A DNA stretch of 32,893 nucleotides from a virus: positions 1-32,893 of the IMG/VR virus record IMGVR_UViG_3300044638_003909; one strand, given 5' to 3'. How positions within the stretch are numbered: position 1 is the stretch's first letter; every line of letters begins with the position of its first letter. Below, piece by piece: positions 4,675-32,893 of this stretch. The notes below the pieces were generated by a model. The model did not search any database, had not been told where the DNA came from, and was given only the letters and a program-made list of their open reading frames with translations. Both the position numbers and the translations under genes were made by a program.

Positions 4675-5595
4675 TTACGCTCCCTCAACTAGAGAAACGC
4701 AACCTTTTCCGTCCTTACGGCTTTGAGTAGCACCGAAACGTACAACCGCTTCAATGATAGTACCGCCCAAATAACCTGGTGCTTTACGGTTGATAATAGT
4801 TTCAGGGAATGCCTCAGCATAACGAACGTGGTCAGGGTGGAAAAACAATGCAGCTGCTAAGTCGTCAGTTGCTACACTTGCACCAAGTGCTTTTTTGTTC
4901 AAGTCCTTGTCATAGGTCAAACCTAATGAACCGATACCGTCATTCCAACGTACCATGATGTCAATACCCAAGATACGCCCAAGAACGCCCTCTTGTAGTT
5001 TGGTCATCAAACCTGTTTTCTCAAAGTCAACAAACTCGGGAACTTGCAAAAGGTCATCGTATTGGTCGGGTGTTACCACGCCAATGATACCGTTAATGCT
5101 TGGCAAATTCATTTTCATGAACGCTTGACGCACTTTCATGATGTCTGCCTTTGTGAAACGCTTGCGATTTCCTGTTGCACCTACCAACGAAGTAGCACGG
5201 TTAGCGCCTGTACTTGTGATAATGTTGGTTGTTGAACCCCATGCTTGTGCTGCATAGTCTGCCGCTTTAGTTGACATTGCACCGCCCATTGAACGTGCTA
5301 CGTCTAACTGCTTGCTGTAGTTCAAAACTATTTCTTCCTCACGTTTAACCAAAACTGGCTCAGAATAAATCTGAACAAGTGGATAGTTGAAAACGTCATC
5401 GGTACGCTCGCCAATTGCAACTGGTAAGCTAGGATTTCCGATTTTTGCGCCACCGATATTTCCTGCTACTGGAATATCAACGCTGTCAACATTTCCTGCT
5501 GCAGCATCTTTGAATGCCTTTGTGTAAAACACGTTATCTGGAAACAACTGCTTTGCGAGGTCTGTCGAAAACAGTTTAGGACTGATTTGTGCCAT
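4675..5595 (-). CDS. Major capsid protein (HK97 fold likely)
   Basis: A 306-residue protein (MAQISPKLFSTDLAKQLFPD) directly downstream of the protease/scaffold gene and followed by a strong terminator, the usual arrangement for a major capsid protein. The sequence has an N-arm, a segment with alternating strands (SVDIPVAGNIGGAKIG), a spine-helix-like stretch (TKADIMKVRQAFMKMNLP), VVTPDQYDDLLQVPEF (a motif common in HK97-type capsids of Bacteroidota phages) and a beta-rich C-terminus. No large N-terminal delta domain is obvious, which agrees with a separate or fused scaffold in the upstream gene. HK97-type subunits form pentamers and hexamers of the shell. Start at ATG 5595. Confidence 0.85.
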   Translation of the reverse strand: MAQISPKLFSTDLAKQLFPDNVFYTKAFKDAAAGNVDSVDIPVAGNIGGAKIGNPSLPVAIGERTDDVFNYPLVQIYSEPVLVKREEEIVLNYSKQLDVARSMGGAMSTKAADYAAQAWGSTTNIITSTGANRATSLVGATGNRKRFTKADIMKVRQAFMKMNLPSINGIIGVVTPDQYDDLLQVPEFVDFEKTGLMTKLQEGVLGRILGIDIMVRWNDGIGSLGLTYDKDLNKKALGASVATDDLAAALFFHPDHVRYAEAFPETIINRKAPGYLGGTIIEAVVRFGATQSRKDGKGCVSLVEGA

Positions 5596-6844: not shown

Positions 6845-6891
6845 TTATTCTTATTCTTATTCTTATTCTTATTCTTATTCTTATTCTTATT
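6845..6891. repeat. TTATTC hexamer tandem repeat (7 perfect copies plus TTATT)
   Basis: Seven perfect copies of TTATTC (GAATAA on the minus strand), 6845-6886, then a partial copy. It is next to the 11-bp repeats. A tandem AT-rich tract beside iterons resembles a DNA-unwinding element, but could also be a slippage-prone microsatellite. Confidence 0.9.
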
Positions 6892-6899
6892 GCGGATGT

Positions 6900-6936
6900 G
6901 TATGCATAGTGTATAGATAGAGTATAGATAGTGTAT
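6900..6936. repeat. 11-bp direct repeats, array A (GTATnnATAnn)
   Basis: GTAT recurs at 6900, 6911, 6922 and 6933, exactly every 11 bp. Units: GTATGCATAGT, GTATAGATAGA, GTATAGATAGT, then GTAT of a broken fourth unit. The same consensus recurs in array B. Confidence 0.8.
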
Positions 6937-7071
6937 ATTTTTTAAGTCAGTCAAATGACCATCAAATAGATAATAAGTTGATATTTAATGATTTACACAC
7001 ATTTTTTACTTTATAATTTCTAACCAATCAAATAAAAATCGTCGGAAAAGTGTCTGCGCTCAAATTATACA

Positions 7072-7119
7072 GTATCGATAGTGTATGTATATAGTATGGA
7101 TAGAGTATCTATATGGTAT
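7072..7119. repeat. 11-bp direct repeats, array B (GTATnnATAnn)
   Basis: GTAT recurs at 7072, 7083, 7094, 7105 and 7116, again every 11 bp. Units: GTATCGATAGT, GTATGTATATA, GTATGGATAGA, GTATCTATATG, then GTAT. All four complete units keep GTATnnATA. An 11-bp spacing puts binding sites on nearly the same DNA face. Confidence 0.8.
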
Positions 7120-14127: not shown

Positions 14128-15600
14128 TTAGTATTCTATTCCGTCGCTGGCTCTCATTGCAATACGTTTGTCGGTGCTGTCTCTATTTTTAAACGAGTTA
14201 AATTGGTCACTAAAATAAAAGCATAAAAAGTAATCCATTGTATCGCTTAAGTGTCCGTATTTCTCGTATGTTACGCCCGTCTTTGCGTCTTTTACTTTTT
14301 CTTTCAGCTTAGTTCCGTCGCTTGCTTCTTTCACATAGCGAACATCCTCAATAGTCTTTTTGCAGTTTTCGCCAATCGTTATATTTACATCAAACCGTCC
14401 GCTGAATATTTGGTTGATAAACATCCCACGTACCATTACTGGTGGATTAGATAACGGCACCCTCGTTTGTGGGTTGTACTCCTGTAAATCGTTTGTTATA
14501 AGACTAAAAAAGTTGTACCCTTTTTGCAATTTTGCGTCTGCCTTTCTACTGGTAGCATCACCGTAGATAAACATCCCTGCCCTGTGGCCAACATATCGCT
14601 TTCTAAATTCAGTAATCGTATGTTCAAGCGTATTGCGTGGACTTTCCAAAGCAATTTCATCAATCTGCCAAGCGTTAAGTCCTTCGGCTTGCCATATTGA
14701 ACAAGAAACATAAGGATTTACGTTTTCATCAAATGACAAATGCAAAGGAAGTTCGGGGTTGTAACCTTTTGGCTTCACACTATGAGAAACATTGAACGCT
14801 TTGTAGAACTCTGCCCCTGTATCTAGTTTTCCCCATTCCCCAAGTGCATAAACCCTGTAATATGGATAATCATGTTTACGGTCAAACTCAAAGTCTGCAA
14901 TTGTGTGTTCATCTATAAATCCAACATTTGACAGTTCAGGGTGTCCCACCACCCAAAAATTGTCCATGTACGTAGTTTTGATTAGAATCGTATTGCCCTC
15001 CTCATTAATCCTTACAAAACTCTCGTCTGAAAGTTTGCTGTAATCAATTCCGTAAATTTCTTTTGGCAGATCAATCCACGTTTGCGTGTCAATGATTTCT
15101 TTTTTAATCCAATGTTCCTCTGAAATTGGATTCCACATTGCGATTATCTGTTGCCCAGGGCGACCACGTAACCGCTTCCGAACTTGTTTGAAATCTTCGT
15201 GTGTAAATTGCGATAATTCCTCAAGGATAACACGCTTGAACCTCGATATACCTTTTATCTTTTCGCTATCGTCAAGCCCTCTAAAACGAATGTAAGCCCC
15301 CGAAATGTTATCAATCTTGTTTTTAATGCAAGTAAAAAGCTTGCCTAAATTCCAGTTGTTTATTATTCCTACAAAATCCGAATAAATACTATCTTCAATA
15401 TCTGAACCTACTTTGCGACACACCATGTATCTGTCAGCCTCACAAAGCGTATCGTAGATTGTTGACTGTGTTACACTGTACGTTTTAGCTGCCGAACTTC
15501 CACCGTAGATAAGTAAAAACCGTATCTTTTTGTCTTGTGTATATTTTCGTATGTGCCAATACAGTGGATTGAATAGTTTCTTATTGAATTTAATCTCCAT
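14128..15600 (-). CDS. Terminase large subunit
   Basis: A 490-residue TerL. ATPase part: an atypical Walker A GGSSAAKT (33-40) and Walker B VILEE (124-128, catalytic Glu), with an arginine-rich coupling stretch (KRLRGRPGQQ) about 140-150. Nuclease part: LHLSFDENVNPY (Asp291), FIYGDATSRKADAK (Asp348) and YGHLSDTMDYF (Asp453/Asp456), the RNase H-like metal cluster. It drives ATP-dependent packaging and cuts DNA at start or end of packaging. The atypical Walker A and motif spacing suit the PBSX-like Terminase_3 group, which generally uses headful packaging; I cannot tell from sequence alone. The start overlaps TerS by 11 bases. Confidence 0.92.
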   Translation of the reverse strand: MEIKFNKKLFNPLYWHIRKYTQDKKIRFLLIYGGSSAAKTYSVTQSTIYDTLCEADRYMVCRKVGSDIEDSIYSDFVGIINNWNLGKLFTCIKNKIDNISGAYIRFRGLDDSEKIKGISRFKRVILEELSQFTHEDFKQVRKRLRGRPGQQIIAMWNPISEEHWIKKEIIDTQTWIDLPKEIYGIDYSKLSDESFVRINEEGNTILIKTTYMDNFWVVGHPELSNVGFIDEHTIADFEFDRKHDYPYYRVYALGEWGKLDTGAEFYKAFNVSHSVKPKGYNPELPLHLSFDENVNPYVSCSIWQAEGLNAWQIDEIALESPRNTLEHTITEFRKRYVGHRAGMFIYGDATSRKADAKLQKGYNFFSLITNDLQEYNPQTRVPLSNPPVMVRGMFINQIFSGRFDVNITIGENCKKTIEDVRYVKEASDGTKLKEKVKDAKTGVTYEKYGHLSDTMDYFLCFYFSDQFNSFKNRDSTDKRIAMRASDGIEY

Positions 15601-16676: not shown

Positions 16677-16682
16677 TTAGTG

Positions 16683-16760
16683 AGCCAAAAACAGGACTCG
16701 AACCTGCGACACTCTGCACATTGGGCTGAACAGACACTCTTCCAACTGAGCTATTTTGGC
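16683..16760 (-). tRNA. tRNA-like gene with an enlarged anticodon loop
   Basis: A 78-nt tRNA-like sequence. The acceptor stem GCCAAAA/TTTTGGC is perfect; the D-arm is GCTC-AGTTGGAA-GAGT; the T-arm is GCAGG-TTCGAGT-CCTGT; the discriminator is T and no CCA is encoded. The anticodon stem TCTGT/GCAGA (one G-T pair) closes a 12-base loop, TCAGCCCAATGT, instead of 7 bases. T73 and overall similarity suggest tRNA-Gly (GCC or CCC lies in the loop), but the isotype is uncertain. It could be inactive, frameshifting, or a tRNA mimic. Confidence 0.65.
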
Positions 16761-17164: not shown

Positions 17165-18565
17165 TTAAAACGGCTCGTAATGGCTTGAATAACCATCTTC
17201 ACCAAATATCTTTTTGAATGACCTATCATGTTTGAAAAACACTTTCACGTCCCTTTCTCCCTCTCTATGCTTAGCGATTATTAGCCAGCCCCTACAATCC
17301 CAACTAAGCCCATTGTCATCTACTGCCTCAGTATCGTAGTATGTTGGTCTATGTGGAAAAATCACAATATCGGCGTCCTGTTCAATGTTTCCGCTCTCTC
17401 GTAAATCTTCCAACTTTGGAGCTTGAACCTTTACGCCTTTCATTGGTCGATTAAGCTGTGCAAGTAGAATGATTGGTATTTGAAGCTCTTTCGCTAAGTT
17501 CTTTAACTCCCCAGTGATATAACCCACTTCCAAATCACGTGTGCCAAATTTCAAATTCGTTTTTATTAACTGCAAATAGTCGATAATCATTATTTTCAAT
17601 TTTCCTTGCCTGTGCTGTTTTCTTGCCAGTGATTTGATGTTGGATAAATTTCTGATATTAGGATCATCCGCAATATCAATTCTCATTTTCAAAATGTCCG
17701 TAATCTTTTGGTCAATGAATCCCCACTCTTCAAATGTGAGTTGTCCAGTTTTCAATCGGTAAAAATCTATTCCGTCATGTTCTGTCAGCATCCTAATGAT
17801 TAGCTGAATTTTGGTCATTTCAATGGAAATAAACAAACAGTCATTGTTTGTCATACCTGCATACTTTGCGAAATTAACTGCAAATTGTGTTTTACCCATG
17901 GAAGGACGCCCGCCCAAAATTATTAAGTCAGGCGAATGCCACCCACCGTTTAGCTGTTTGTCTAGGTCTTTTAATCCTGTTGGTATTGCTGTTTGTTTTC
18001 CACTCTCACGTTCATATTGCAACTTCTTTAGGTATTCAATCGTTTCACTTACTGACTCCATCATTTCGCTTGCATACGTTTCATTCGAGCCAGTGGTTAT
18101 GTCTGTGAATGTTTTTTCAACAAACTCAAAAATATCAGCAACATCCGTCGATTGGTCAAATGCCATTTCTTGAATTGACGATGAAAGAATGATTAATTTT
18201 CGAGCTATCGCCTTTTGCCGAATGATTAGCGAATGATGGTGAATGTTTGCCGACGATGCAATGTTTGAGCAAAGAAGTGTTATTGCGTATGCACCCCCTA
18301 TTTTGTCAAGTTCATTTGTGCGCCTTAGTTCCTCAGTAACTGTCAGTAGGTCGATTGGGTTGTATTTATTTTTCAATCGCTGTATTGCCGAGAATATGAT
18401 TTGATTAGTTTCTAGGTAGAAGTCGCAAGCGTTTAACTCCACTTTTTCGATAGCGTTCTGCTCAATCATCAACGCTCCGATAACTGCATTTTCGATTTCT
18501 ATTGCGCTAGGCTGAATTTTATCAAGGCATGTAGACATGGTCATTTGCTGTTTCTTTTTTTCCAT
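17165..18565 (-). CDS. dnaB: Replicative DNA helicase, DnaB family
   Basis: A 466-residue protein from ATG 18565 (MEKKKQQMTMSTCLDKI); ATGs at 18544 and 18538 are alternatives. All overlap the initiator gene. Residues ~20-120 form the helical DnaB N-domain (IENAVIGALMIEQNAIEKV). The RecA-like domain has Walker A GRPSMGKT (219-226), Walker B IIDYLQL (327-333) and ESGNIEQDAD (about 390-399). It is full-length for DnaB. It unwinds DNA at the phage fork as a hexamer. The adjacent initiator gene would load it, and the overlap suggests coordinated synthesis. A holin promoter lies just downstream. Confidence 0.95.
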   Translation of the reverse strand: MEKKKQQMTMSTCLDKIQPSAIEIENAVIGALMIEQNAIEKVELNACDFYLETNQIIFSAIQRLKNKYNPIDLLTVTEELRRTNELDKIGGAYAITLLCSNIASSANIHHHSLIIRQKAIARKLIILSSSIQEMAFDQSTDVADIFEFVEKTFTDITTGSNETYASEMMESVSETIEYLKKLQYERESGKQTAIPTGLKDLDKQLNGGWHSPDLIILGGRPSMGKTQFAVNFAKYAGMTNNDCLFISIEMTKIQLIIRMLTEHDGIDFYRLKTGQLTFEEWGFIDQKITDILKMRIDIADDPNIRNLSNIKSLARKQHRQGKLKIMIIDYLQLIKTNLKFGTRDLEVGYITGELKNLAKELQIPIILLAQLNRPMKGVKVQAPKLEDLRESGNIEQDADIVIFPHRPTYYDTEAVDDNGLSWDCRGWLIIAKHREGERDVKVFFKHDRSFKKIFGEDGYSSHYEPF

Positions 18566-19274
18566 TGTTTTTTTCTTTTTCAATTTTGAACCAATTTGCG
18601 AAATGAGGAAAGCAATCACTCTTTGCCTTTTCTTTCACATTTTCAAGTTTTAGTTTAATGACAAATTCATTTATCCAGTTTTCAATTTCAAACATTGAAA
18701 TTTTATTTTGCATGCAGAATATTTCTTTCCAGTGTTGGTCAGCTAGTAGATAATCTTTCAAGTCATATATTGGAATTAAAAAACGATTTTCGGGTGCGGG
18801 AATTTCTCTCTCTCTCTCTCTTTCTTCTCTTTCTTTAATTTCTTCTCTTTCTTCTCTTTCTTTAATTGTTGTTAGCCGTCTGTTATCCGTCTGTTGTTGG
18901 TATGTTATTGGTATGTTATTTGTGTGTTGTTGGTCTGTTGCATTACCTTGATAAGTGTCCCATTTACAGACTGTTAACCGTGTTGTAAATTGCAACCCCT
19001 CAGTTTTAATCATTCCGTCAGCTTCCAACAGCTTAAAGAACGTTCTAACCTGTTGCAATGACCATACAAATTTCTTTGACCAGCTTTCAAGTGATAGCAA
19101 ACTTTGCCCTGCTTTGCAGTCATACAACTGACCTTTTATCAGTGTTTTGTTTGACTCATAATTTACTGTTAATAGAATTGTTTCCCATGCTTCACGCTTG
19201 GTTAGCGGTCTATATTCATTGTATAGCCAGTGGTCTAAGCAACCTCTATGTAGCTTTATCCATCCGTCATTCAT
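18522..19274 (-). CDS. Replication initiator / helicase loader with iterons inside the gene
   Basis: A 250-residue protein from ATG 19274 (MNDGWIKLHRGCLDHWLYNE). The N-terminal ~100 residues look like a winged-helix domain (LTKREAWETILLTVNYE, LSLESWSKKFVWSLQQVRTFFKLLEADGM) shared with Bacteroidota replication initiators. A low-complexity linker follows (about 110-160), first Gln/Asn/Thr then Glu/Arg/Lys. The C-terminal domain (about 165-250) includes MFEIENWINEFVIKLK and SDCFPHFANWFKIEK, resembling a DnaD-like or DUF7833 helicase-loading domain. The linker DNA carries six 11-bp iterons and a purine tract, the arrangement of lambda gene O. It precedes and overlaps dnaB. Confidence 0.85.
   Translation of the reverse strand: MNDGWIKLHRGCLDHWLYNEYRPLTKREAWETILLTVNYESNKTLIKGQLYDCKAGQSLLSLESWSKKFVWSLQQVRTFFKLLEADGMIKTEGLQFTTRLTVCKWDTYQGNATDQQHTNNIPITYQQQTDNRRLTTIKEREEREEIKEREEREREREIPAPENRFLIPIYDLKDYLLADQHWKEIFCMQNKISMFEIENWINEFVIKLKLENVKEKAKSDCFPHFANWFKIEKEKNNGKKETANDHVYMP
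18805..18868. other. Purine/pyrimidine-asymmetric tract beside the iterons
   Basis: Plus strand almost all C and T (TCTCTC and TTCTTCTC runs); minus strand almost all A and G. It encodes the Glu/Arg/Lys linker of the initiator and directly abuts the 11-bp iterons. Such tracts melt or form triplex easily and are typical neighbours of iteron origins, but low-complexity coding alone could also explain it. Confidence 0.6.
18871..18947. repeat. Six tandem 11-bp iterons inside the initiator gene: candidate origin
   Basis: GTT recurs at 18871, 18882, 18893, 18904, 18915, 18926 and 18937, exactly every 11 bp. Units: GTTAGCCGTCT, GTTATCCGTCT, GTTGTTGGTAT, GTTATTGGTAT, GTTATTTGTGT, GTTGTTGGTCT, then a decayed seventh. 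Eleven is not a multiple of three, so the repeat is not caused by a repeated peptide. Consensus roughly GTTRTYNGTNT. Confidence 0.8.
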
Positions 19275-19276
19275 AA

Positions 19277-19429
19277 TCAATTAAGTTTAATGTAATCTAC
19301 TCCGTCAATCCTTTCTACTGCCAATATTCCGTCATTAATCTGTTTGTCGATAGTTGGACGGCTAATCGCATACTTTTTCGAGTAATTGGATTTACTCATT
19401 AAATCTTTTCTGATTGTTAACCTCTTCAT
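19277..19429 (-). CDS. Small HTH protein upstream of the initiator
   Basis: A 50-residue protein (MKRLTIRKDLMSKSNYSKKY) with ATG 19429 and stop at 19277, directly before the initiator ATG (19274). It looks like a MerR/excisionase-type winged helix: SNYSKKYAISRPTIDKQIND (HTH), then ILAVERIDGVDYIKL (wing). Such mini-HTH proteins are common just upstream of replication genes in Bacteroidota phages. It may regulate the operon or help load the initiator; no direct evidence. Its promoter is probably at 19488-19495. Confidence 0.75.
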   Translation of the reverse strand: MKRLTIRKDLMSKSNYSKKYAISRPTIDKQINDGILAVERIDGVDYIKLN

Positions 19430-19503: not shown

Positions 19504-19926
19504 TTACATACAACTACTATTAGTTTGTAATAAATTACTCAAATGTTTTGATATTTCATTGATTGTGTCCATTTGTAGGGCTTTTTGTATCTCTTCCTTG
19601 AGTTTATATACAGTTCTGTCTTTTTCGCTTAAAATGGTCATAAATTCGGCGTATTTCAAACGATATTTTGTGTTTGTTTCCAGCAGCTCCTCATTCTTTT
19701 TAATCGCATTTAAAACAGTTGCATGGTCCCGATTAAAAACAGCCCCTAGCGTTTTAAGTGAGATATTTTTCCCGTACATGTCACGCATTATTCTGAATAT
19801 GAAAGTACGAGGTATGACGTGCTCATTCTTTCTAGAAGGCGCCATTAAATCCTCTTTCGTTACGTTGAAATAATCACATATAATTTGGGTGATTTCTTGC
19901 AATTTAATTTCTTGTTCAATGTCCAT
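19504..19926 (-). CDS. Stand-alone DnaA domain IV-like DNA-binding protein
   Basis: A 140-residue protein whose first ~80 residues are the DNA-binding domain of DnaA: IICDYFNVTKEDLMAPSRKN (about 15-34), FIFRIMRDMYGKNISLKTLGAVF (about 42-64) and the signature NRDHATVLNAI (65-75). It lacks the AAA+ ATPase domain, and the C-terminal ~60 residues form a helical coil instead. It should bind DnaA-box-like sites. Phages may use such proteins to start their own replication or to block or borrow host DnaA. A near-match DnaA box lies at 6991-6999 in the non-coding region. The start overlaps the VRR-NUC stop by 11 bases. Confidence 0.85.
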   Translation of the reverse strand: MDIEQEIKLQEITQIICDYFNVTKEDLMAPSRKNEHVIPRTFIFRIMRDMYGKNISLKTLGAVFNRDHATVLNAIKKNEELLETNTKYRLKYAEFMTILSEKDRTVYKLKEEIQKALQMDTINEISKHLSNLLQTNSSCM

Positions 19927-31472: not shown

Positions 31473-32893
31473 AAGCTACTCCATTTGCTGAATTTAGTAC
31501 CCTCAAAAGGGCTTCACGTACTTTAACTTCTAGTTCATCCACTCCCTCTGTAATATTTGAACTATTGATGTACAATTTTTCTACTAGGTTTGTGAGAGTG
31601 ATATTTATATTTGTGGCTCTCGTTCCACCACCTGTAATACCCTTGGTAGTGTCTTTAAGTGCCTTGCTTGCTGAACCTTTGTCGGCAACGTCTGGATTTT
31701 CTCCGATATTTGTTTTGGTAGTTTCAAGTCCAACATCTTTTTTGATGTCCTTTACTACGTCCGACATCTTTTTGTTGTTCCATTTCACCTCCCATACGGT
31801 CATCGCTGAACGTGCTTTTGATAGTTCTGAAACTTTGTTTTGCTGTTTCAAAATTTCCTCAGCCCTCTTGTTTCTGTCATCTTGTATTTTTGCAAGCCCT
31901 GCATTGGAAGCGTTTTTGTCCCAAAGAGATTGAAGTTTGTACCACCCTTTTTGAATTACTTCAAAGCCACTCAGAAAAGTATTTTGAACATTAAGCCATT
32001 GCAGACTAAACCAAGCACCCATTTGGGTGAAACTTAATTTCATATACTCCATGGTATTTGTCCAAGTCTTACCCCAACCGTCAGTTTTATAGATTACATA
32101 ACCGATTACTGCGATTAATGCAACAATTGAAGCAACTATCAAAGGTATTCCAGTCATCTGAAAAGCTATTGCCAAACCGCCTGTTACAGCAGTCCACGCA
32201 GTTGTAACCATTGCTGCAATAGCCACGTAAGCATTGTAAGCGAGTATTACCCCTGCCAAAACTCCAAGTGCTACTGCAAAAGTTTTGGCTACTGGTCCAA
32301 GATTATTAAACCAATGATACACTTTGCTTGCACCGTCAACCATCTTAATGAAAAAGTCAATTATTTTGCTCGTGATCGGGTTTAGTTTTTCTCCCAACTT
32401 CATAAACTTAGTGTTTATGGCATCCATAAGGGTTGACCACTTACCATTTACTGTTTGCGATTGTTTTTCTGCCATTTGGTAGAACTTCCCACCTGCAGAT
32501 GTTGCAGATCTAAAAGCATCCTCAACCATTTGGAATGAGATTTGCCCTTTCTCCATTTCCTTGCGAAGTTCACCCATTGACTTCCCAGTCTTTTTGCTGA
32601 TTTCTTGCAATGGATTGAATCCTGCATTAATCATTTGCAGTAGGTCTTGCCCTTGCATTTTTCCAGCACTTTGAACCTGTGAGAATGCCAAAGTCAAAGA
32701 GTTCATTTTTTCCTGACTTCCCATAGCTACATCACCAAGCATTCCAATAGTAGGCAAAATCTTTTCCATTGATATGCCAAACGATAGCATCATTTTAGCG
32801 TTTTCGTTCAAGTCCTTTGATTCGTATGGTGTTGCATTTCCATAGTTGCGTATTTTTTCAATCAGCGCATTTCCTTTCTCTGCTGAGCCAAGT
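31462..32893 (-). CDS. Tail tape measure protein, C-terminal part
   Basis: Continuation of the gene starting at 435. Bases 32866-32893 repeat 1-28, so the true sequence runs 32865 to 31462. The N-terminal part of this half is helical (NENAKMMLSFGISMEKILPT) with the tape-measure core MQGQDLLQMINAGFNPLQEI and GKSMGELRKEMEKGQISFQM. A membrane-like stretch with three hydrophobic segments follows (VALGVLAGVILAYNAYVAIA, WTAVTGGLAIAFQMTGIPLI, ASIVALIAVIGYVIY), and a charged C-terminus ends VAYGS. The total of 612 residues is short for a tape measure; the length would correspond to a tail of roughly 90 nm by the usual 1.5 angstrom per residue rule. Confidence 0.9.
   Translation of the reverse strand, partial: LGSAEKGNALIEKIRNYGNATPYESKDLNENAKMMLSFGISMEKILPTIGMLGDVAMGSQEKMNSLTLAFSQVQSAGKMQGQDLLQMINAGFNPLQEISKKTGKSMGELRKEMEKGQISFQMVEDAFRSATSAGGKFYQMAEKQSQTVNGKWSTLMDAINTKFMKLGEKLNPITSKIIDFFIKMVDGASKVYHWFNNLGPVAKTFAVALGVLAGVILAYNAYVAIAAMVTTAWTAVTGGLAIAFQMTGIPLIVASIVALIAVIGYVIYKTDGWGKTWTNTMEYMKLSFTQMGAWFSLQWLNVQNTFLSGFEVIQKGWYKLQSLWDKNASNAGLAKIQDDRNKRAEEILKQQNKVSELSKARSAMTVWEVKWNNKKMSDVVKDIKKDVGLETTKTNIGENPDVADKGSASKALKDTTKGITGGGTRATNINITLTNLVEKLYINSSNITEGVDELEVKVREALLRVLNSANGVAYGS
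32866..32893. repeat. Terminal overlap, right copy (identical to 1-28)
   Basis: See the left copy. Removing one copy restores the tape-measure frame and gives a circular length of 32,865 bp. Confidence 0.9.

Follow-up and report, generated by a model that had tools for sequence, protein, structure and literature searches.

The initiator gp38 (G38P) of the Bacillus phage SPP1 binds direct repeats in two replication origins, oriL, which lies inside gene 38, and oriR. Each origin adjoins an AT-rich unwinding element, and about 13 kb of the circular molecule separates them (PMC6316719). ORF20 of the staphylococcal phage 80alpha has been proposed to carry an origin inside its gene in the same way as G38P (PMC5499656). 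In lambda, the origin occupies the middle of gene O, where four iterons are followed by an AT-rich region (PMC7466680). Here, we analysed a viral DNA of 32,893 nucleotides (the window, meaning this whole stretch) and examined an array of 11-bp direct repeats within it. We consider it highly probable that this array is the initiator-binding part of a replication origin, located inside a gene for a replisome organizer of the G38P type. The already known SPP1 oriL/gene 38 arrangement thereby appears to be present in a Bacteroidota phage, and the array, with changing units, appears to occur in phages of several phyla.

The window carries a 28-bp direct terminal repeat (1-28 and 32866-32893), and the genome is therefore probably circular and complete, with a length of 32,865 bp. 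The terminases nearest to that encoded at 14128-15600 belong to Flavobacterium myophages of the Winoviridae (48%). Together with the prophages found in the clade of the window's initiator, these terminases support the assignment to a Bacteroidota myophage, and it is on these two observations that Bacteroidota is taken as the probable host phylum. In the Winoviridae phages recovered as terminase relatives (L285 and L286), the place of the initiator and dnaB is taken by a replication module of the VirE type; relative to the window, this is apparently an exchange of the whole replication module. A tRNA-Ile gene with the anticodon AAT, unusual for bacteria, was also identified on the minus strand (16682-16760). 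GC skew had been suggested as a means of locating the origin. Because all long genes are on one strand, however, the GC and AT skews are monotonic with no switch near the array, and the detrended extremes (845 and 26390) are positioned away from it. The skew did not locate the origin and neither supports nor opposes one at the array, and it is thus uninformative rather than contrary.

The reading frame of the initiator is open from a TTG at 19280, although alignment with relatives indicates that the ATG at 19274 is the likely start (Table 1). The protein matches PHROG 2514 (E 5e-27) and PHROG 186 (E 4e-12), both annotated as "DnaD-like helicase loader", and its residues 6-92 match SPP1 gp38 by tblastn (E 6e-12). 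Searches of solved structures gave no sequence match with the initiator protein alone and no significant structure match to its N-domain; Foldseek against the PDB returned CRP, CodY, and ArsR-type folds for this domain, every E above 0.001, and the profile matches to FadR/AsnC/MarR-type winged helices were weak. The AlphaFold2 model, for which 35 aligned sequences served as input, gives the N-domain a pLDDT of about 84-98 per 10-residue block over residues 11-110 and orders its elements as H-H-E-E-H-H-E-E. The same model predicts a charged helix for residues 139-158, which are encoded by the purine tract, and a helical C-domain. We infer that this C-domain, DUF7833, recruits a partner. A DnaD/DnaB_2 C-domain, which PVL possesses, was not matched in the window initiator (Pfam E up to 0.1, NCBIfam E up to 0.01); with DUF7833 in its place, an identity as DnaD proper was ruled out. 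The likely ATG of dnaB, at 18565, places the first 44 bp of dnaB within the initiator gene, and this overlap and the modelled winged helix agree with the winged-helix initiator overlapping dnaB of the original prediction.

Table 1. Features of the candidate origin and its surrounding genes in the window.
Feature	Position	Strand	Basis or remark
Initiator / replisome organizer gene, 250 aa from likely ATG	18522..19274	-	PHROG 2514; tblastn to SPP1 gene 38 and staphylococcal phage DnaD-like initiators
N-terminal winged-helix DNA-binding domain (predicted), residues 7-110	18951..19262	-	AlphaFold2; weak profile and Foldseek matches
Predicted HTH recognition helix, residues 75-87	19020..19058	-	AlphaFold2 helix H75-87 after H64-71
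Iteron array, 11-bp direct repeats	18870..18947; six strong units 18874-18939	-	Consensus AACAnACnAAT on coding strand
Linker residues 117-138, translated from the array; predicted to be disordered	18867..18932	-	pLDDT below 50
Purine tract, candidate DNA unwinding element	18803..18866	- (purine on coding strand)	70% AT, low stability
C-terminal DUF7833 domain	18585..18755	-	Pfam PF25200 E 8e-10; other domains in its place in relatives
DnaB-like replicative helicase gene	17165..18565	-	Pfam DnaB_C E 5.5e-72; DnaB N-domain E 4.6e-25

On the plus strand, GTT recurs seven times at an exact spacing of 11 bp (18871, 18882, 18893, 18904, 18915, 18926, and 18937). Throughout the window, the only other trinucleotide that forms a run of at least six at this spacing is TGT, which belongs to the same array. 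The 11-bp self-match reaches its window maximum at the array (z 6.6), making this the strongest 11-bp periodicity of the window; the maxima obtained from shuffled windows were 4.7 at period 11 (first-order Markov, n=200) and 5.5 over periods 7-30 (n=60). The array was also reported by Tandem Repeats Finder. On the coding strand it comprises six strong units of 12-15 bits each, AACAGACCAAC, AACACACAAAT, AACATACCAAT, AACATACCAAC, AACAGACGGAT, and AACAGACGGCT, which are non-palindromic 11-mers in direct, head-to-tail orientation. Both the sevenfold recurrence of GTT, which exceeded all 200 window-wide shuffles, and the count of six iterons were as predicted. A unit-score scan found no further cluster of the AACAnACnAAT unit within the window, such as an oriR-like second array would form.

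When the codons of the window gene were shuffled synonymously, preserving both protein and codon usage, none of 1000 shuffles reached the observed 11-bp score (P=0.001). The same test applied to 165 dereplicated family members at period 11 resulted in 122 with P<=0.05, of which 81 were at the test floor. At period 9, 26 members had P<=0.05 and 4 were at the floor, whereas period 12 gave 16 and 3. Because synonymous shuffling abolishes the periodicity while the protein is kept, the repeat reflects a constraint on the DNA and is not a peptide repeat, which had also been claimed at the outset. It is exceedingly improbable that the repeat is instead a by-product of a low-complexity peptide linker. 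The encoded linker is indeed disordered and rich in Q/T/N, and the protein sequence by itself yields part of the 11-bp signal (mean z 3.8 in the shuffled gene), but this null never attained the observed value, 11 is not a multiple of the codon length, and among relatives the unit starts are spread over the three codon phases (41/27/34). The repeats are located where the protein tolerates nearly any sequence, as would be expected if a DNA function dictates the sequence.

The array is followed by the 64-bp strand-asymmetric tract that had been described, which is a purine tract on the coding strand. Its plus-strand pyrimidine runs (18803-18836 and 18839-18863) are the only purine or pyrimidine runs of at least 20 in the window. 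In stability, the segment 18800-18869 is in the 4th percentile among 70-bp windows, which makes it a candidate unwinding element. The AT-rich melting region of the original prediction is therefore retained with regard to low stability and AT content, but the segment is an A/G-rich purine tract and not simply AT-rich. In 94 of 99 relatives, the 70 bp past the array has a lower stability than the remaining gene (mean -1.154 vs -1.271 kcal/mol per step), unlike the array itself, which is more stable. This 70-bp segment is A-rich in many relatives, with AAC AAT GAT repeats, and nearly all purine in the window. Long purine runs past the array were also observed in some relatives (L002, L035, L039, and L040).

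Searches for relatives with single proteins yielded one locus in one case and none in another, and an alignment of 14 sequences was too diverse as a query, whereas an alignment of four sequences worked. Using tblastn of phage records, relatives were identified in staphylococcal, Bacillus (including SPP1 gene 38), Listeria, Enterococcus, Vibrio, Shewanella, and Sulfitobacter phages, and about 240 loci were obtained when viral contigs and bacterial genomes were searched with alignments. Arrays were called just past the N-domain by one fixed procedure (z >= 4) in the 165 dereplicated genes, including the window's own. An 11-bp array at the end of the N-domain was present in 103 of the 165 genes, compared with only 1 of 2435 equal-length flanking segments. 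In the tree of 164 members, 13 carry a 12-bp array and 50 are without a clear array. The window falls into a clade of 35 members (support 100/99), to which prophages of Labilibacter, Marinilabilia, and Massilibacteroides also belong. The units vary among phages and share a loose common core, nnCAnAnnAAn. The iterons were expected to stay at the 11-bp phase in homologous initiators, and they do so in about one hundred divergent relatives, at a constant place within the gene and with units starting in any of the three codon phases. Relatives without this phase had been named as counter-evidence; such relatives exist as a minority of the family (about a third, some with 12-bp arrays), but 29 of the 35 members of the window's clade keep the 11-bp array. 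No published family-wide 11-bp rule was found in the literature searched, which left out most subscription papers.

The 12-bp arrays, which are in frame with the codons, were observed in L012, L019, L021, L085, L145, L161, L164, L170, L173, L183, and L192. The 12-bp label needs about nine or ten changes on the tree; thus, the spacing seems to have switched repeatedly between 11 and 12 bp. We also note that the replication gene of Pseudomonas phage PSV3 (L016, accession No. OP712483.1) is nearly identical to that of the staphylococcal PVL, array included, and this record is possibly a mis-assigned contig.

Other periodic sequences are present in a non-coding stretch of the window (6845-7119), which contains (TTATTC)x8 at 6845-6891 and 11-bp arrays of the GTATAGATA type at 6898-6937 and 7066-7119 that do not match the initiator iteron. 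A regulatory or recombinational role is conceivable for this stretch, as is that of an additional or alternative origin. If replication started there or at another site, the array in the initiator gene might be an operator through which the initiator regulates the initiator-dnaB transcript. Iteron-binding initiators often autoregulate, and the existence of separate intergenic 11-bp arrays would suit such a role, but we judge it unlikely given that the low-stability segment adjoins the array family-wide, as expected of an origin, and that the corresponding gene of SPP1 carries the proven oriL. Moreover, the arrays at 6.9-7.1 kb score at most 1.5 bits, against 12-15 for the iteron. In two related records, one holding the closest N-domain relative (G005, 76% by tblastn) and the other possessing a 127-bp terminal repeat (G009), the initiator array is the strongest 11-bp periodicity of the record, and no second array, whether oriR-like or of the 6.9-7.1 kb type, was found in either.

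With the array read as a binding site for the initiator, the domain responsible can be sought among relatives. Across 102 genes with arrays, array similarity correlates with N-domain identity (Spearman 0.32, Mantel P 0.005), a modest relationship that is partly phylogenetic. The partial correlation with array similarity is 0.31 for the N-domain when the C-domain is fixed, and 0.09 for the C-domain. The C-domains are exchangeable, being DUF7833 in the window, Phg_2220_C in SPP1, DnaD/DnaB_2 in PVL, and none recognised in the closest relative (L034). A natural exchange is provided by locus L031, which is 91% identical to the window through the end of the DnaA-like gene, divergent over the N-domain and array, and again similar (83% identity) past a crossover that lies inside the purine tract, at its GAGAGA stretch. 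This locus (L031 2097-3489) encodes a different, unrelated N-domain with a weak match to Lin1244_N, has no 11-bp array, and carries a DnaC-like ATPase where the window has dnaB. N-domain and array were thus lost together. The staphylococcal pair PVL and SA345 share a C-domain and differ in the N-domain, and most units of one array show the same base changes relative to the other; their alignment resumes before the array, which fits block exchange or concerted change alike. Covariation between residues and iteron positions (effective 64 sequences, phylogeny ignored) peaks in the two HTH helices (H64-71 and H75-87), with the strongest signals at residue 67 (with iteron positions 6-7) and at residues 73, 75, 80, 81, and 85, which is no more than a hint at the recognition residues. 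These comparisons suggest that the repeats are read by the N-domain of the initiator and not by its C-domain.

Another candidate reader is encoded just upstream, at 19504-19926, where a 140-aa protein consists of only the DnaA C-terminal (domain IV) DNA-binding domain (PF08299 E 1.3e-17) without the AAA+ part. It is very improbable that this protein, or host DnaA, binds the repeats in place of the initiator: a partial likeness to a DnaA box is seen in some units (TTATCCGTC), yet none is within one mismatch of TTATCCACA and no DnaA boxes are present at the array. L031 keeps the DnaA-like gene (94%) while lacking the array, the array sequence follows the initiator N-domain, and four of seven related records contained no significant match when searched for the DnaA-like protein.

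Recognition by the initiator is also the expectation from SPP1. As a positive control, the array procedure detected an 11-bp array in SPP1 gene 38, the original gp38 footprints of which are reportedly those of Missich et al. 1997. This SPP1 array segment (35889) recurs only once in the 44,010-bp record, at 4878, with 83% identity and with fewer and less regular units. The two copies are 13.0 kb apart across the ends of the record. Agreement of this spacing with the published oriL-oriR distance is good evidence that the 11-bp arrays serve as the initiator-binding repeats of this family. By analogy with SPP1 and further iteron-based origins, the window's array may likewise be where the initiator binds, the DNA melts, the helicase is loaded, and replication starts. 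Initiator monomers would bind successive 11-bp repeats head to tail via the N-terminal winged helix, and such sites, at about one per helical turn, would be aligned along nearly one face of the helix. The resulting nucleoprotein complex could then strain and open the adjoining low-stability purine tract. The C-domain may bring in the phage DnaB-like helicase, which is encoded immediately downstream, and this helicase would in turn recruit host primase and polymerase. The prediction of an iteron origin with an unwinding segment in a winged-helix initiator gene is supported by homology to SPP1, by the 11-bp phase of about one hundred relatives, and by the joint exchange of N-domain and array.

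The likely origin of a Bacteroidota phage can in this way be placed to base-pair precision from sequence alone, and the SPP1 arrangement, for which there is proof in a single phage and a proposal in staphylococcal ones, is suggested as the mark of a large initiator family. A broader proposal, for which we consider the chances to be evenly balanced, is that an 11-bp (more rarely 12-bp) array after the N-domain is the origin design of the whole family across phyla, with N-domain and array forming one exchangeable cassette against changing C-domains. Under this proposal, origin position and iteron sequence would be predictable from the initiator, the HTH residues would constitute an iteron code, and the all-purine tract would stand here for the usual AT-rich element. 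If the 11-bp rule and the cassette are true, the origins of many uncultured phages could be located and minimal replicons for Bacteroidota hosts could be built. Pairs of initiator and iteron may also provide a natural data set for a DNA recognition code. For specialists, the family-wide rule and the cassette would be of more interest than a single new origin.

The locus was originally described as lambda O-style, and this holds for the layout, in which the origin lies within the initiator gene, but not for the protein, a "DnaD-like helicase loader" by PHROG and a relative of SPP1 G38P, or for the units. Lambda iterons are longer than 11 bp and palindromic, and the helicase-recruiting partner is encoded next to O. 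Unlike the four lambda iterons, the units in the window are 11 bp in length, non-palindromic, and arranged head to tail. No O-like PHROG matched the window initiator at E 0.001, and SPP1 and PVL relatives match O-like families weakly. Membership in the lambda O group was ruled out on the basis of this result and the non-palindromic direct 11-mers. The staphylococcal DnaD-like initiators (PVL type; 80alpha ORF20) are closer, with an N-domain about 37-40% identical to that of the window and an 11-bp array in the same place. They differ in their DnaD/DnaB_2 C-domain, in their iteron sequences, and in the host phylum, and in staphylococcal phages a DnaC-like loader usually adjoins the initiator or a helicase gene is absent.

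The nearest characterised relative is, judging from these comparisons, SPP1 G38P/oriL and not lambda O. SPP1 differs from the window in having a Phg_2220_C C-domain instead of DUF7833, iterons of the GACACrrAAA type instead of AACAnACnAAT, an AT-rich unwinding element where the window has a purine-rich segment, and a gp39-type loader, which the window lacks between initiator and dnaB. SPP1 also has a second origin, oriR, with the same repeats, to which no second array in the window corresponds; as neither G005 nor G009 has one, we take the second origin as a trait of SPP1 and not as defining the family. In both phages, homologous N-domains are followed at the same gene position by 11-bp direct repeats and then by an unwinding segment, a candidate one in the window, and the replicative helicase is encoded nearby. 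The features of the SPP1 G38P type, namely homology of the winged-helix N-domain, repeats inside the initiator gene, a flank of low stability, and an operon with the helicase, are all found at this locus.
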